From the NCBI GenBank assembly GCA_022822375.1, contig JAJEBU010000107.1, forward strand, positions 1 to 53,834: DNA of 53,834 nucleotides, written 5' to 3'. The notes under the pieces are model-generated. The model had not been told where the DNA came from and did not search any database. It was given only the letters and a program-made list of their open reading frames with translations. Each line of letters begins with the position of its first letter. The stretch's first letter is position 1. The translations under genes were made by a program, and so were the position numbers. Below are positions 11,292 to 48,433 of the stretch, piece by piece. The stretch is from Dehalococcoidia bacterium (lineage in GTDB: Bacteria > Chloroflexota > Dehalococcoidia > Bin125).

Positions 11292-11337
11292 AACAGGCCT
11301 GTGCTCGCGCATGCAGAATCCTGCAGGGAGGGCCGAA

Positions 11338-11811
11338 ATGACGACTCCCAGAATCACAGCACTCCGACCGGCCCGCCGAGTCATCGGGGCGCTTCTGGCG
11401 CTGACGGTCGCTGCGATCAGCTTGGCCTGCAGCGGCGATGACAGCGCGACCGAGGTCGACATCACCTTGCACGAGTGGGGCATCAGTCCAGCCGCGATTG
11501 AGGTCGATGCCGGCACGATCGTGTTCAACATCAGCAACGACGGCCCCGATGATCCGCACGAGTTGGTCGTGATCCGCATCGGCGAGACCAACATCGCCGA
11601 CATCCCGGTCGTCGATGGCATGGTTCCAGAGGACGAGGTTGACTTCATCGACGAGCTGGAAGAGATCGAGGTCGGCGAATCCGGCGCACTCGAGGTCGAT
11701 CTGAGCGCCGGCCGTTACCTGCTGTTGTGCAACATCGTCGAGCAAGAGCGAGGTGGCGGCACTGAGAGCCACTACGAGATGGGCATGCGAGCATTGCTCA
11801 CCGTGAACTAA
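11338..11811 (+). CDS. cupredoxin-like lipoprotein (type 1 copper site)
   Basis: A 157-residue exported protein. The N-terminus is a lipoprotein signal with basic residues, a hydrophobic core and the lipobox SLAC (Cys31). The mature part is a beta-sandwich with candidate type 1 copper ligands His74 (DDPHEL), Cys131 (LLLCNIV), His145 and Met148 or Met150 (SHYEMGM), as in plastocyanin or sulfocyanin-type electron carriers. The loop between Cys and the second His holds an extra EQERGGGTE. The start is the ATG with GGGAGG eight bases upstream. It would carry electrons at the outer face of the membrane; its partner is not in the window. Confidence 0.8.
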   Translation: MTTPRITALRPARRVIGALLALTVAAISLACSGDDSATEVDITLHEWGISPAAIEVDAGTIVFNISNDGPDDPHELVVIRIGETNIADIPVVDGMVPEDEVDFIDELEEIEVGESGALEVDLSAGRYLLLCNIVEQERGGGTESHYEMGMRALLTVN

Positions 11812-11828
11812 CGGAGGGCGTCGACGCC

Positions 11829-11870
11829 GTGCCGCACATCCGAATGGACAAGGTGCTGAAGAACGGGTAA
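11829..11870 (+). pseudogene. relic of an acyl-CoA ligase 3' end
   Basis: The sequence encodes VPHIRMDKVLKNG and then TAA, closely like the A10 end PRNHMGKVLKND of the ligase gene 0.6 kb upstream. By hand count the DNA matches 11218-11256 at 30 of 39 positions without gaps. It has no start and no upstream coding remnant. It may be what is left of a second ligase copy or of the ligase's former end before the cupredoxin gene arrived. Confidence 0.5.
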
Positions 11871-11894
11871 GCCCCGACAACGTGCGACAGGCGT

Positions 11895-11900
11895 TACAAT
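11895..11900 (+). promoter_or_regulatory. -10 element TACAAT of the RNA gene
   Basis: TACAAT is five of six to the consensus. Transcription would begin near 11906-11908. A weak -35 candidate (CCGACA, 11874-11879) is spaced 15 bases. No coding gene starts downstream on this strand for 1.3 kb, so the promoter most likely serves the structured RNA. Confidence 0.5.
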
Positions 11901-11905
11901 GCTGA

Positions 11906-12042
11906 CAGAGCGCGAGGCCGTGCGTCCGTCGGAGGCCCTTCCTAGGAGCGCCAAAGCCGGGCGGTGATCAACCTCGCAAGCAATGGATAGGGGTTGCCCC
12001 TATCGGCGCCGTCTTCCCCTGGGAGGCGGCGCTTCATTTTTT
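11906..12042 (+). ncRNA. unassigned structured RNA, about 135 nt
   Basis: A TACAAT promoter and an intrinsic terminator bracket a non-coding stretch. Its 5' half can fold through GGCC...GGCC (11916-11937 region). The middle has an unpaired-looking purine-rich stretch (GCCAAAGCC, GCAAGCAATG). Just before the terminator is a perfect hairpin, GATAGGGG-TTG-CCCCTATC. It lacks the conserved cores of SRP RNA (GGAAG...AGCAG), tmRNA, RNase P RNA or the common riboswitches I compared by eye. The downstream gene is convergent, so a leader or riboswitch role is unlikely. The RNA 3' end is antisense to the last codons of the DUF3800 gene. Either a stand-alone small RNA or an antisense regulator. Confidence 0.5.
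12006..12042 (+). terminator. intrinsic terminator with T tract
   Basis: A GC-rich stem (GCGCCG 12006-12011 with CGGCGC 12027-12032, continued by inner U-G and C-G pairs) is followed by TTCATTTTTT. It is the only clear hairpin-plus-T-run terminator seen in the window. The T tract contains the stop codon (minus strand TGA, 12034-12036) and AAA-AAA lysine codons of the convergent DUF3800 gene. Confidence 0.8.
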
Positions 12043-13116
12043 CAGGCTGGCTCGGTGCGCTTCAATGGCATCGCGGATGTCCGAGTCCGGGAAGATCTTT
12101 AGTCCAAACTTGCCCATCCCCATATCCCCTCGTTGGTGGATTTGTGGTCCGAACGACTTCCACCGAGCGGGCTCCACCGAGCATTCCGCTCGAATCCACT
12201 CGAAGATGTCCCGAGCAAACATGTCGCTCAATTCGAGCGGATGCGAACCGAGTTTCGGAAGAAACTCGACTCCTGGTCGCACATACTGCTGAAATGCGCG
12301 ACCGGGGATCCACTGCGTTCCATCCAGGATCGTTTCTACGACAGATAGCTGGTGAGCTGCGTCCTCCTTTGGACCTTGAGCCTCGATGGTCACCGCGCCG
12401 AGTGGACGATCCTGCCGGTCAGCGAGGAAGTCAAGAAATCGCTCCAGCAATAGGTGAAGCGCCAGCCCGTAGACACTTCCTGGCAGGTACGGATCAGGGT
12501 CATCACCGTCGCTCAGGTTCTCAAACAGCTTCTTGCGGATCCCTACTCCGAAGGCGACATAATCGCTTTCTTGGATCAGCCTGTTCACCGCCTCGTTCAG
12601 TTCTTGCTGCTTGAGCGTGTCTCCCCTGAATGCAAACACGTCGTCTCCGCGGCGCAAATGCGGGTCATGGAATATGACGCCATTCGGATCACGAAAGAAC
12701 TGTCGTTTGATCTCGTCTGCTCTCCGCCGATAGTCCTCCAGTTGCTCTCGGGACATTGCAACGGCGCCGAGCGAGAACCATGCATCATTTGCTCGGTGTG
12801 CCCGCTGCGGGGTGCCTGATTCGTCTACGAACAGAGTGATGATTTCGCGTTCTTCCCGGACAGGATTGCCCTGACCACCGGCTTGGCGAAAGCGTGTTCG
12901 CGGTTCGATCCTCCCGTAGGATTTCAGCAGTTCAGACTGTTCTAAGTCAGCGATTCGACGAGTGAGGGAACCTGCAGCCGAGGCTTCAGACGCTCCAGCC
13001 CGACGCAGAAGCACTTCAAGCTGTGCCGAAAGTCGACCGGCCTCAGCCAAGAGCAACGACCGACGACGAGCGATTCTCCGACCCGTCGGGTCGCCCGCAG
13101 GCATCTGAGGAGGCAT
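12034..13116 (-). CDS. DUF3800 domain protein with N-terminal coiled coil
   Basis: A 360-residue protein. Residues about 15-65 form a charged Arg/Glu/Ala helix, likely coiled coil. The DUF3800 domain begins at ITLFVDESG (about 93-101), whose Asp98/Glu99 are the expected first acidic pair of an RNase H-like site, and continues through VIFHDPHLRRGDD, TIEAQGPKED and LELSDMFARDIFEW, which supply further acidic residues. DUF3800 proteins are widespread, often in defence or mobile contexts, and are predicted nucleases; direct functional data are few. AGGATGG precedes the ATG. Codon use seems less GC-biased than in neighbours, suggesting transfer. Its 3' end overlaps the terminator of the convergent RNA gene. 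Confidence 0.75.
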   Translation of the reverse strand: MPPQMPAGDPTGRRIARRRSLLLAEAGRLSAQLEVLLRRAGASEASAAGSLTRRIADLEQSELLKSYGRIEPRTRFRQAGGQGNPVREEREIITLFVDESGTPQRAHRANDAWFSLGAVAMSREQLEDYRRRADEIKRQFFRDPNGVIFHDPHLRRGDDVFAFRGDTLKQQELNEAVNRLIQESDYVAFGVGIRKKLFENLSDGDDPDPYLPGSVYGLALHLLLERFLDFLADRQDRPLGAVTIEAQGPKEDAAHQLSVVETILDGTQWIPGRAFQQYVRPGVEFLPKLGSHPLELSDMFARDIFEWIRAECSVEPARWKSFGPQIHQRGDMGMGKFGLKIFPDSDIRDAIEAHRASLKK

Positions 13117-13229: not shown

Positions 13230-15464
13230 GTGAGTCAGCAGACTGAATCTCGGCGGGCAGCGACGCCCTCGTCGACCACCAAGCGCGTTTCCGCGCTCGC
13301 CATTCCTGCCTGGCTGCCGCTGGGCGGCATCTTGCTCGTCTCCGGCGCCGAGACCGTCCGCGTGACCGGCGCCCATCGCGAGCTCTTCTTCAACATCGAC
13401 CACTTCTGGGTGCTCTACATGCTGCTCCCGTTTGTGATCGGAATCATCATCTACGGGCTCGTCCGACGCTCCCGCGTCTGGCGGCTCGGCCAGCCGATCG
13501 TCGATCTCAGTTCGGTCCGCGAACGCGGTCCGCGCGCCATTCTCGACAGTTTCAGCGACCTACCCGTCCGACTCGGACGCCTGGTCAAGGGCGGCGGCGG
13601 GACCGAGCGTGTCCTGCGCGATCCGTACTCAGGCGTGATGCACATCTGCATCATGTCGTCGATGATCGTGCTGTTCCTGGTCACGGCGCTGCTCGCGATT
13701 GACGACTACGTTCCTGTCGACATCCTCGTCGGACCGCGCTACCTCGGTTACTCGCTGGTGGCGGACATCTTCGGGCTGATCGGGATCATCGGCGTCGCGA
13801 TGGCGGTCGCGCACCGCTGGGTGCGACCGCGCACCGCCTGGCTGCCGACATGGGAGGATTGGCTGATTCTCGGCGGTCTCGGCGGGCTGCTGATCACCGG
13901 CTTCCTGGTCGAGGGTCTGCGCATTCACACCTCCGAAATCGACGTCAACCCCGAGTGGTCGTACTGGTCGCCGGTCGGCTACGTGGTGGCGCTGATGTTC
14001 TCGGGCGTGCGGATCTCGGTTGCGCTCGACATCCACCAGACCTTCTGGTGGATCCACATGATTGGCGCCCTGTCGTGGATCACCTTGTTGGGTTACTCCA
14101 AGCTCAACCACTTAATCCTCGCGCCGGCCAACGCCTTCCTCAAGCGCACCTCCGCGCCAGGCAAGCTCGACATGATCCCCAACATCGAGGAGCAGGAGCA
14201 CTTCGGTGTCTCACAGCTTGAACACTTCTCGATGAAGCAGCTCTTCGAGCTCGACGTCTGCGTGCGCTGCGGTCGCTGCACCGACAACTGCCCCGCCGAC
14301 ATCGCCGGCCAACCGCTCTCGCCGATGCACATCATCCAGGACCTCAAGTCGTACGCCACCGACGTCGGCGAGCGCAAGGTGGCCAACCTGGTGCAGGGCA
14401 ACGATCTCAACTTCGGACTGGAGGACGCCGCGCCGATGGTCGGTGGGGTGGTTCGCGATGAATCGCTGTGGGCCTGCCGCACCTGCGGTGCCTGCGTGGA
14501 GGCCTGTCCCGTCTTCATCGAGCACGTGCCGACGATCGTCGATATGCGCCGCTCCCTCGTGATGGAAGAGGCGCGCATGCCTGACACCGTGCAGGGCACG
14601 CTCGAGACGTTGGAGCGTCAGGGCCACCCCTGGCGGGGCACGCCGTACACGCGCGAGTCGTGGATGGAAGGCATCGAAGATCAGGTCCCCGAGTGGACCG
14701 GCGAGCAGGAGTACCTCTACTTCGTCGGCTGTACCGGCGCATTCGTTGACCGCGCCCAGGAGATCACCCGCTCGGTCCTCTCACTGCTGCGCGAGGCGGA
14801 CGTCTCCTTCGGCGTGATCAAGGGGATGGAGTCATGCAACGGCGATCCCGCGCGGCGTCTCGGGCACGAGTACCTCTACCAGATTCTGGCCGAGGGCCTG
14901 ATCGAGCTGTTCAACGAGACCGGCGTCAACGACGAACAGAAGACGGTCATCACCCACTGTCCGCACTGCTTCAACACGTTCATCAACGAGTACCCCGACA
15001 TGGGCGCGAAGTTCCAGGTGATTCATCACACGCAGCTGCTCGAGCAGCTGGTCGACGAAGGCCGGCTCGTCCCGCGCGATGACGGTCCCGAGCAGACGAT
15101 TACATACCACGACAGCTGCTACCTCGGCCGACACAACGACATCTTCGAGGCCCCGCGCCGGATTCTCGAGCAAGTGCCCAACGTCACGCTGATCGAGATG
15201 CCGCGCAACCGCGAGCAGGGTCTGTGTTGCGGCGCCGGCGGCGGTAACATGTGGATGGAAGAGCAGGGCAAGAGCCGCGTCAACGAGGTGCGGGTCGAGG
15301 AGGCCGTCGCCACCGGTGCGGACTCCGCCTGCACGGCTTGCCCGTTCTGCATCCAGATGTTCGATTCCGGGATCGGCACGGTCCAACTGGATGTCGAGGA
15401 CGAGGACAAGCTGAAGGTCCTCGACGTCGCGGAGCTGCTCCAGGCGGCGTCGGTGGAGGATTAG
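13230..15464 (+). CDS. etfD: membrane Fe-S oxidoreductase, EtfD/EMO-type ETF:quinone oxidoreductase
   Basis: A 744-residue protein in three parts. Residues about 20-320 have at least five membrane helices of the NarI/HdrE type with His residues that could hold heme b. Two [4Fe-4S] ferredoxin motifs follow, CVRCGRCTDNCP (Cys344, 347, 350, 354) and CRTCGACVEACP (Cys416, 419, 422, 426). The C-terminal half has two CCG-type cysteine domains (HCPHCFNT; SCYLGRHN, LCCGAGGGNMW, CTACPFC). This is the layout of mycobacterial EtfD (Rv0338c) and of EMO proteins, which pass electrons from EtfBA to menaquinone during beta-oxidation. The etfBA genes follow on the same strand after a Doc toxin cassette, which supports the call strongly. 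A FixC-type ETF-QO is not seen. Start GTG with GGGGGTG. Confidence 0.85.
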   Translation: MSQQTESRRAATPSSTTKRVSALAIPAWLPLGGILLVSGAETVRVTGAHRELFFNIDHFWVLYMLLPFVIGIIIYGLVRRSRVWRLGQPIVDLSSVRERGPRAILDSFSDLPVRLGRLVKGGGGTERVLRDPYSGVMHICIMSSMIVLFLVTALLAIDDYVPVDILVGPRYLGYSLVADIFGLIGIIGVAMAVAHRWVRPRTAWLPTWEDWLILGGLGGLLITGFLVEGLRIHTSEIDVNPEWSYWSPVGYVVALMFSGVRISVALDIHQTFWWIHMIGALSWITLLGYSKLNHLILAPANAFLKRTSAPGKLDMIPNIEEQEHFGVSQLEHFSMKQLFELDVCVRCGRCTDNCPADIAGQPLSPMHIIQDLKSYATDVGERKVANLVQGNDLNFGLEDAAPMVGGVVRDESLWACRTCGACVEACPVFIEHVPTIVDMRRSLVMEEARMPDTVQGTLETLERQGHPWRGTPYTRESWMEGIEDQVPEWTGEQEYLYFVGCTGAFVDRAQEITRSVLSLLREADVSFGVIKGMESCNGDPARRLGHEYLYQILAEGLIELFNETGVNDEQKTVITHCPHCFNTFINEYPDMGAKFQVIHHTQLLEQLVDEGRLVPRDDGPEQTITYHDSCYLGRHNDIFEAPRRILEQVPNVTLIEMPRNREQGLCCGAGGGNMWMEEQGKSRVNEVRVEEAVATGADSACTACPFCIQMFDSGIGTVQLDVEDEDKLKVLDVAELLQAASVED

Positions 15465-16024
15465 ACGTCCTCGGAAACGGAGCTGGATGGGTCCCGTAGG
15501 ACGGCGTCCATCACTCTCAACGTCAGCGGATCTGGTGCACGGTCGTTCAACATGTCGTCGAACGCTCGCACCACGTCCAGATCTTGTGCTTGCTGACGCT
15601 CGGCGACCAGAGCTCTGATTTTCGTCGGATGCCAGTGCCGACGAATCGTTCGGTCCTCAATGAACTTGCTGAGCTGCGGCTTGTCCCACTCGTGGCTCGC
15701 CACCTTCAGGCTGACGTCAGTCAGCATCTCGTCCGTCGTCAGCAAGATTGCCCCGTTGAGTCCCAGAAAGTACTCCATCGCCGCCAACGCGAATCTCTTG
15801 TTCCCGTCAACGAATGGATGGTTCTGACTGAGGTGATATTGGAGCGCCGCGGCCTTATGCGGCAAGGCACGGTAGTTCGGCTGCCGCGGCACGGCCAGCG
15901 CGCTCTGAAGCAACGCTTCACCCTGGAATCGCAACTGGAACGCCGGAGGCTCAGAGAACAGACCTCCGGCCGCTTCAATCAGCAACGCCGTGTCAGACAG
16001 TTCGAGATATCGCAGAGTCGCCAT
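15461..16024 (-). CDS. Doc/Fic family toxin
   Basis: A 187-residue Fic-fold protein. The active-site loop HPFVDGNKR (69-77) is intact, with the catalytic His replaced by nothing. The spacing YHLSQNHPFVDGNKRFALAAMEYFLGLNG is that of Doc, whose known activity is phosphorylation of EF-Tu; other Fic proteins AMPylate targets. It is about 60 residues longer than P1 Doc, with a C-terminal helical extension. The antitoxin gene lies three bases upstream. Its 3' end overlaps the end of the convergent etfD-like gene by four bases, so the cassette is packed tightly into the etfD-etfB gap. Confidence 0.85.
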   Translation of the reverse strand: MATLRYLELSDTALLIEAAGGLFSEPPAFQLRFQGEALLQSALAVPRQPNYRALPHKAAALQYHLSQNHPFVDGNKRFALAAMEYFLGLNGAILLTTDEMLTDVSLKVASHEWDKPQLSKFIEDRTIRRHWHPTKIRALVAERQQAQDLDVVRAFDDMLNDRAPDPLTLRVMDAVLRDPSSSVSEDV

Positions 16025-16027
16025 GCG

Positions 16028-16186
16028 CTACTGCTTGGACAGCTCCCGATGAGCATTCTCTCGACGGCGGAAGACGATCTCGGCCAACTGGCGCTTGTCC
16101 TCCTCGGTCCGCGGCGGCAGGTGGAACTCTTGATCAGCGGCCTGCTCTGCCTGGTGATTGCCGCTGCTGGTCTGCTTGTCGCTCAT
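16028..16186 (-). CDS. short antitoxin of the Doc module
   Basis: A 52-residue protein, MSDKQTSSGNHQAEQAADQE followed by FHLPPRTEEDKRQLAEIVFRRRENAHRELSKQ. The N-terminal part is polar and probably disordered, and the C-terminal part is a charged helix, which fits a peptide that wraps around and inhibits a Fic-fold toxin. AGAGGTG lies six bases before the ATG and the stop is three bases before the Doc ATG, so the two are translated together. It has no visible Phd/YefM DNA-binding domain. It is assigned by context and size. Confidence 0.65.
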   Translation of the reverse strand: MSDKQTSSGNHQAEQAADQEFHLPPRTEEDKRQLAEIVFRRRENAHRELSKQ

Positions 16187-47305: not shown

Positions 47306-48433
47306 ATGATCCGCAACAGCAGCGAGCACGTCCACGACGTGGTCGTCGTCGGGGCTGGCGCCGCAGGTGTTGGCGTCGCCGTCACGCTCGGGCACGCCGG
47401 CGTCGAGGACCTGGTCGTGATCGAACGTCATACGGTCGGCTCATCGTTTGCCGCCTGGCCGGCCGAGACGAGATTCATCACACCGTCGTACGCGACCAAC
47501 TCGATCGGCATGCTCGACATCAACTCAATCGCCATGGGGACTTCTCCGGCGTACAGCCTGGAGGTCGAGCATCCGACGGGCGAGGACTACGCGAAGTACT
47601 TGCGTGCGGTTGCGCACTTTTTTGAGGTTCCGGTTCGAACGAACACCAATGTGCTGCAGGTCGCCCAAGAGGGCGATGGCTTCCGCATCGACACTGACGA
47701 TGAGGCGCTGTATGCCAAGCACGTGATTTGGGCTGCTGGCGAGTTTCAGTATCCACGACTGAGCGGATTTCCGGGCAGCGATCTGTGCCGCCACACGGCG
47801 ACGATTCCCAGCTATGACGACTTGGACGGCGATGAGATCATCATCATCGGCGGCTACGAGAGCGGGATCGACGCTGCGTACCACCTGGCCTACTGCGACA
47901 AACGCGTGCGGGTCTTCGACATCGACTGCCCGTGGGAGAGCGAGAGCTCTGACCCAAGCATCGCGCTGTCACCGTTCACGCTGGAACGGATCCATGAGCG
48001 TCCGTTCGTTGAGCGAGTCGAGCTGCACGGTAACAGCGCGATTGAATGCGTCACCTGCACGGACGGCGGGTATGAGGTCGCCGTTGAGGGCGGACAGCGC
48101 TTTCGCACGCCGGTGCCGCCTTTGCTGGCGAGCGGATTTGAGGGCAGCCACCGGTTGGTCGCTGAACTGTTTGAGCAGCGGGACGACGGCTACTTGCTGC
48201 TGAGCGAAGACGATGAATCGACGATGACGCCGGGCATCTTTCTCTGCGGACCGGCGGTTCGTCACAACAATCACGTCTTCTGCTTCATCTTCAAGTATCG
48301 GCAGCGGTTTGCCGTGGTGGCCAAGGCGATTGCGACTTCGCTGGGGCTGCCGGCAGACGCGCTCGAGGAGTATCGCAAGTGGGGCATGTATCTCGATGAC
48401 CTCTCCTGCTGCGGCGAGGGCTGCGTATGTTGA
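47306..48433 (+). CDS. FAD/NAD(P)-binding oxidoreductase with Cys-rich C-terminal tail
   Basis: A 375-residue flavoprotein with two Rossmann motifs: FAD-binding VVVVGAGAAGVGVAVTLG (12-29) and NAD(P)-binding IIIIGGYESGIDAAYHLA. The fold is that of thioredoxin-reductase-like and YpdA/CzcO-like monooxygenase-type proteins. There is no internal CxxC redox pair. Instead the last eight residues are CCGEGCVC, four cysteines that could bind a soft metal or relay electrons or sulfane sulfur. The stop overlaps the start of a two-helix membrane protein, so the two are translated together. No ribosome site precedes the ATG. Substrate unknown. Confidence 0.75.
   Translation: MIRNSSEHVHDVVVVGAGAAGVGVAVTLGHAGVEDLVVIERHTVGSSFAAWPAETRFITPSYATNSIGMLDINSIAMGTSPAYSLEVEHPTGEDYAKYLRAVAHFFEVPVRTNTNVLQVAQEGDGFRIDTDDEALYAKHVIWAAGEFQYPRLSGFPGSDLCRHTATIPSYDDLDGDEIIIIGGYESGIDAAYHLAYCDKRVRVFDIDCPWESESSDPSIALSPFTLERIHERPFVERVELHGNSAIECVTCTDGGYEVAVEGGQRFRTPVPPLLASGFEGSHRLVAELFEQRDDGYLLLSEDDESTMTPGIFLCGPAVRHNNHVFCFIFKYRQRFAVVAKAIATSLGLPADALEEYRKWGMYLDDLSCCGEGCVC

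Follow-up and report, generated by a model that had tools for sequence, protein, structure and literature searches.

A small structured RNA gene convergent with a DUF3800 gene in Dehalococcoidia resembles a new class of DUF3800-associated RNA

Proteins of the DUF3800 family are described as having an RNase H fold in which the catalytic arrangement is altered (PMC10910872) and have been reported adjoining Cas12a2, type VI-F and type V-A2 loci (PMC10910872, PMC12669027). Their association with putative non-coding RNAs is indicated in the part of PMC10910872 that cites Weinberg 2017. Several DUF3800-associated RNA families are held in Rfam, and a search of the literature yielded no assigned function for any of them. 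A related layout is that of type III toxin-antitoxin systems, where ToxI is described as an RNA made of repeats and transcribed together with the endoribonuclease (PMC8860590, PMC5772629).

Examination of a 53,834-nt contig of a Dehalococcoidia bacterium (hereafter the window, meaning the whole stretch analysed) revealed what is almost certainly a real small RNA gene at 11982-12043 of the + strand, facing a DUF3800 gene. The features of the locus, and one gene of a related locus, are as follows.

11896-11901, + strand: possible -10 hexamer TACAAT, with a weak -35 CCGACA at 11874-11879 and a spacing of 16 (sequence; weak)
11902-11981, + strand: 5' extension that the window shares with its sister genome G007 alone, lacking structural support (fold z, comparison with G007)
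11982-12043, + strand: RNA core, 62 nt, two hairpins with an AAUG/AGUG 5' leader (75.7 bits with model R1; covariation in 18 homologues)
11986-12004, + strand: hairpin 1, 8 bp, GAUAGGGG-UUG-CCCCUAUC (both sides changed in 4 of 8 pairs among homologues)
12005-12033, + strand: hairpin 2, the terminator stem, 13 bp (both sides changed in 6 of 13 pairs; terminator scan)
12037-12042, + strand: the terminator's U-run, which lies antisense to the final Lys codons of DUF3800 (sequence)
12034-13116, - strand: 360-aa protein of DUF3800, an RNase H-fold family (PF12686; motifs conserved in homologues)
L045:1611-2258, in the related locus: T5orf172 (GIY-YIG) gene replacing DUF3800 beside an intact RNA

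A preliminary description of this DNA had proposed a structured RNA of about 135 nt with its own promoter and terminator. The perfect GATAGGGG/CCCCTATC hairpin that it reported is indeed present at 11986-12004; it abuts hairpin 2 directly and the T-run follows. The fold of the 141-nt stretch has a z-score of -2.7. In an alignment of 18 homologues fitted to R1, a model built from eight copies, 95.6% of the cells at paired positions are paired and both sides have changed in 10 of 21 pairs. None of 500 shuffles was as good as the real alignment, cells changed on both sides numbered 37 where shuffles gave 9.9, and only 36-58% of cells were paired in slid controls; an alignment made earlier with MAFFT agreed with this. 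The MAFFT alignment shows G-U pairs and no A-C mismatches on the + strand, as would be expected if the RNA is read from this strand rather than from its complement. A variable guide-like segment was found in none of the 18 copies. The terminator had been called the only strong one of the window; at 12005-12042 (13 bp and T-run) it is the longest-stemmed terminator-like site, but 47601-47617 holds another, which is shorter and has six T.

The proposed length did not stand. The stretch 11902-11981 folds with a z-score of only -0.3, and changes in G007 disrupt its predicted pairs, although the extension of about 80 nt is about 85% identical between the two genomes (76 of 89 columns unchanged). 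Given this lack of structural signal it was left out of the conserved RNA, and the 135-nt model was dropped. The TACAAT hexamer exists as described, but it reads TACACT in G007, its -35 is weak and a consensus promoter scan of the window lists none at 11896, which makes the start and length of the window RNA tentative. Of 19 loci, 17 have a promoter-like pair, often resembling TTGACA-17-TATAAT, that ends 5-7 nt ahead of the core; between 0.05% and about 7% of random positions score as well as the individual pairs, and closely related loci are not independent of each other. The window and G007 do not have this pair and carry instead the additional 80 nt or so after TACAAT/TACACT; transcription of the RNA in the window organism is presumed. 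Upstream, a cupredoxin-like gene (11311-11871), absent in G007, lies between an AMP-binding gene and the RNA, and behind it comes a short segment similar to the 3' end of the AMP-binding gene.

The window protein matches PF12686 with 28.8 bits against a cut-off of 21 (E 2e-6), and its homologues keep the acidic motifs and invariant residues expected of family members. RNA and gene are convergent: as had been noticed, the 3' end of the RNA is antisense to the last DUF3800 codons, the stop codon (12034-12036) sitting between terminator stem and U-run and the coding overlap being about 10 nt. Searches of PADLOC, NCBIfam and PDB sequences with the protein returned nothing useful, no relatives were found in phage, plasmid and viral collections, and an AlphaFold2 model built from two sequences only reached a pLDDT of 37. 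DUF3800 genes are common in the class (74 of 285 genomes). Further along the window, 15461-16024 and 16028-16186 (- strand) hold a Doc/Fic death-on-curing toxin gene (TIGR01550) and an upstream ORF of 52 aa that could be a candidate antitoxin, the pair being inserted beside FeS/electron-transfer genes.

Linkage of the RNA gene to DUF3800 is highly probable. DUF3800 homologues with identities as low as about 45%, from other genera and families and from one MAG of the Deltaproteobacteria, have the same two hairpins at their 3' ends, in agreement with the suggestion that RNA and gene form a unit. A protein search for close DUF3800 relatives found the RNA in all seven genomes, in one as a weak variant. 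To whether the RNA travels with DUF3800, a covariance search with R1, which used no protein information, gave a largely positive answer. The scan covered 393 genomes from the class and 400 from the phylum, about 740 different genomes in all, and produced 17 strong matches at 43-81 bits, 12 of which lie opposite DUF3800, intact or as a remnant. The gene is full in six (the window, L013, L014, L015, L068 and L074), reaches at least 310 aa next to a run of N in L043, and is broken or partial in L003, L002, L021, L069 and L070. The RNA of L045 faces T5orf172, and no DUF3800 lies near those of L071, L072, L073 and L075. All remaining matches scored 32 bits or less; the R1 matches at or below about 33 bits that were checked were without DUF3800 and mostly ordinary terminators.

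Only about 2% of the sampled genomes in the class carry the RNA, so that the housekeeping RNA offered as an alternative in the preliminary description can be set aside. In genomes of the same genus the gap between the AMP-binding and FeS genes is short or filled with other sequence and holds no strong RNA copy, which makes the RNA-DUF3800 unit accessory; one of them, G011, has a DUF3800 gene at another site. Of 46 other DUF3800 3' ends, 19 have a strong terminator (-15 kcal/mol or lower) convergent with the gene, compared with 9 of 67 control ORF ends, in a sample that was not random.

Several neighbouring observations were made at these loci. A HerA/DUF87-like ATPase gene adjoins the RNA-DUF3800 pair of the Deltaproteobacteria MAG (L010:7285-9060); in defence loci HerA is often found next to a nuclease. 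Both RNA-DUF3800 copies of G153 adjoin an IS1595-type transposase (L015:2778-3827, tested with Pfam, and a similar ORF at L021:2386-3435), a possible route of duplication of the pair. More distant DUF3800 genes (L018, L019 and L020; 22-27% identity to the window protein) have at the same convergent 3' place a GUCGGCG-hairpin-AGCUUU element, possibly a diverged form of the window RNA.

The RNA persists beside truncated and frameshifted DUF3800 genes and also where the gene has been deleted. Within genus g244, L074 retains the gene, and L071, L072 and L075 retain flanks and RNA but have lost it; L073 compared with these three is 91-93% identical in the core, 30-35% upstream and 67-71% downstream. 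The genome carrying L072 (G454) has no DUF3800 anywhere by Pfam, a search that misses some subfamily members, for example in G153. Conversely, no close DUF3800 without the RNA was seen among the seven genomes of the protein search. The loss cases are few and in part one event, and the numbers are low throughout, with shared descent behind some of them. At the ArgJ-MmgE/PrpD site, with flanks 83% and 87% identical, G356 has the RNA and DUF3800, and G241 the same RNA and a T5orf172 GIY-YIG gene.

The best overall explanation (probability roughly 0.45) is an RNA gene that converges with DUF3800 and is linked to it in function, in an antitoxin-like manner. The folded RNA would bind the RNase H-fold protein to form a ribonucleoprotein, and would then hold it inactive, or license the nuclease until a trigger, as RNA antitoxins do; restraint of the nuclease by the RNA is, from the comparison of sequences, possible at somewhat under even odds. 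An RNA that outlasts DUF3800, with no close DUF3800 lacking it, shows the asymmetry expected of a neutraliser, and together with the tight fold, the nuclease partner and the want of a guide segment this favours binding and restraint. The convergent placement counts against an antitoxin, ToxIN-type RNAs being upstream and repeated, and the exchange for T5orf172 at one site is odd for a specific one. A structural or guide-like RNA that activates DUF3800, in an effector ribonucleoprotein requiring it, would suit an RNase H fold like that of RNA-guided nucleases and the reported vicinity of Cas12a2, type VI-F and type V-A2 loci, but it is unlikely, since none of the 18 copies has a variable segment and the RNA is conserved after nuclease loss.

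The retention of the RNA in G454 suggests a function beyond DUF3800, and it would also suit, as would the T5orf172 swap and the conservation of solo copies within one genus, an independent regulatory RNA that the host has adopted or an element carries and that merely adjoins exchangeable nuclease genes. This we regard as unlikely, the RNA being rare and mostly found at DUF3800 3' ends in distant lineages. A tentative idea of comparably low probability makes the RNA the constant part of an RNA-plus-nuclease module, protecting the host from exchangeable nucleases (DUF3800 or T5orf172) and so outlasting them. The overlap with the stop codon and the full complementarity to any read-through 3' UTR would allow a convergent RNA to pair with the 3' end of the DUF3800 mRNA and lower its expression; yet compensatory changes on one strand maintain the fold, the coding overlap is short and the RNA persists without the gene, so that cis-antisense regulation appears quite improbable. 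Finally, hairpin 2 is a good terminator, but a plain terminator between convergent genes would hardly account for a conserved, covarying hairpin 1 and a promoter-like pair just upstream in most loci, and is very improbable.

No match at gathering score was obtained in the window with all 4227 families of Rfam 15 (cmscan); by eye, the preliminary description had seen none of the cores of common bacterial RNAs that it could test. It had also held that a known class conserved without DUF3800 would speak against the pairing; no known class fits, though RNA copies without DUF3800 do exist. For 11860-12070 the sole match under 0.1 in a scan at E<=10 was tfoR, rejected because its 26.6 bits fall short of the gathering score, 70, and no Rfam DUF3800 family was among the sub-threshold matches. 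The model of DUF3800-IX (RF02968), with which true members score 45-72 bits, had no match at E<=10 in the window region or homologues and none at E<=1 in further copies; that of DUF3800-I (RF02969) matched nothing in 151 genomes, controls included, and is uninformative. The window RNA is conserved, structured and consistently beside DUF3800 genes, and since no Rfam model matched, it looks like a new class of an already known kind. This kind was overlooked in the preliminary description: DUF3800-VI and DUF3800-IX lie near other DUF3800 genes. The new class offers a minimal 62-nt partner, natural nuclease losses and a natural swap, making binding and neutralisation directly testable.

A second structured RNA, three-way-junction-like (GGUUCCyCCCCGA..UAGUCGGGGrGG) and without Rfam match, is convergent with short DUF3800 genes at L100 (G000:C9:8359-8910), L096-L099, L103, L112 and L120, one of them in the window's own genome; it is perhaps a relative of DUF3800-IX. 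Two tandem DUF3800-IX RNAs occur at one DUF3800 locus (L151:2130-2195 and 2269-2338).

Type III toxin-antitoxin systems such as ToxIN share with our locus a structured RNA adjoining a nuclease gene. ToxI RNA lies upstream of the toxin gene; ours is, in all loci read, a single convergent unit with no repeat array upstream, and its nuclease has an unrelated fold. DUF3800-VI (RF02915, Cis-reg) also adjoins DUF3800 genes, but its copies found here, all below threshold, lie upstream of the gene in sense orientation, and it belongs to a different family model. DUF3800-IX (Gene; sRNA), which matches DUF3800 loci of the same bacterial class in convergent layout, differs by its three-way junction with an outer stem in place of our two adjacent hairpins, but is like our RNA in its length of about 67 nt, its convergence with DUF3800, its terminator at or near the stop codon, its TTGACA-17-TATAAT-like promoter just upstream and, in several copies, its GUGG-like 5' start.
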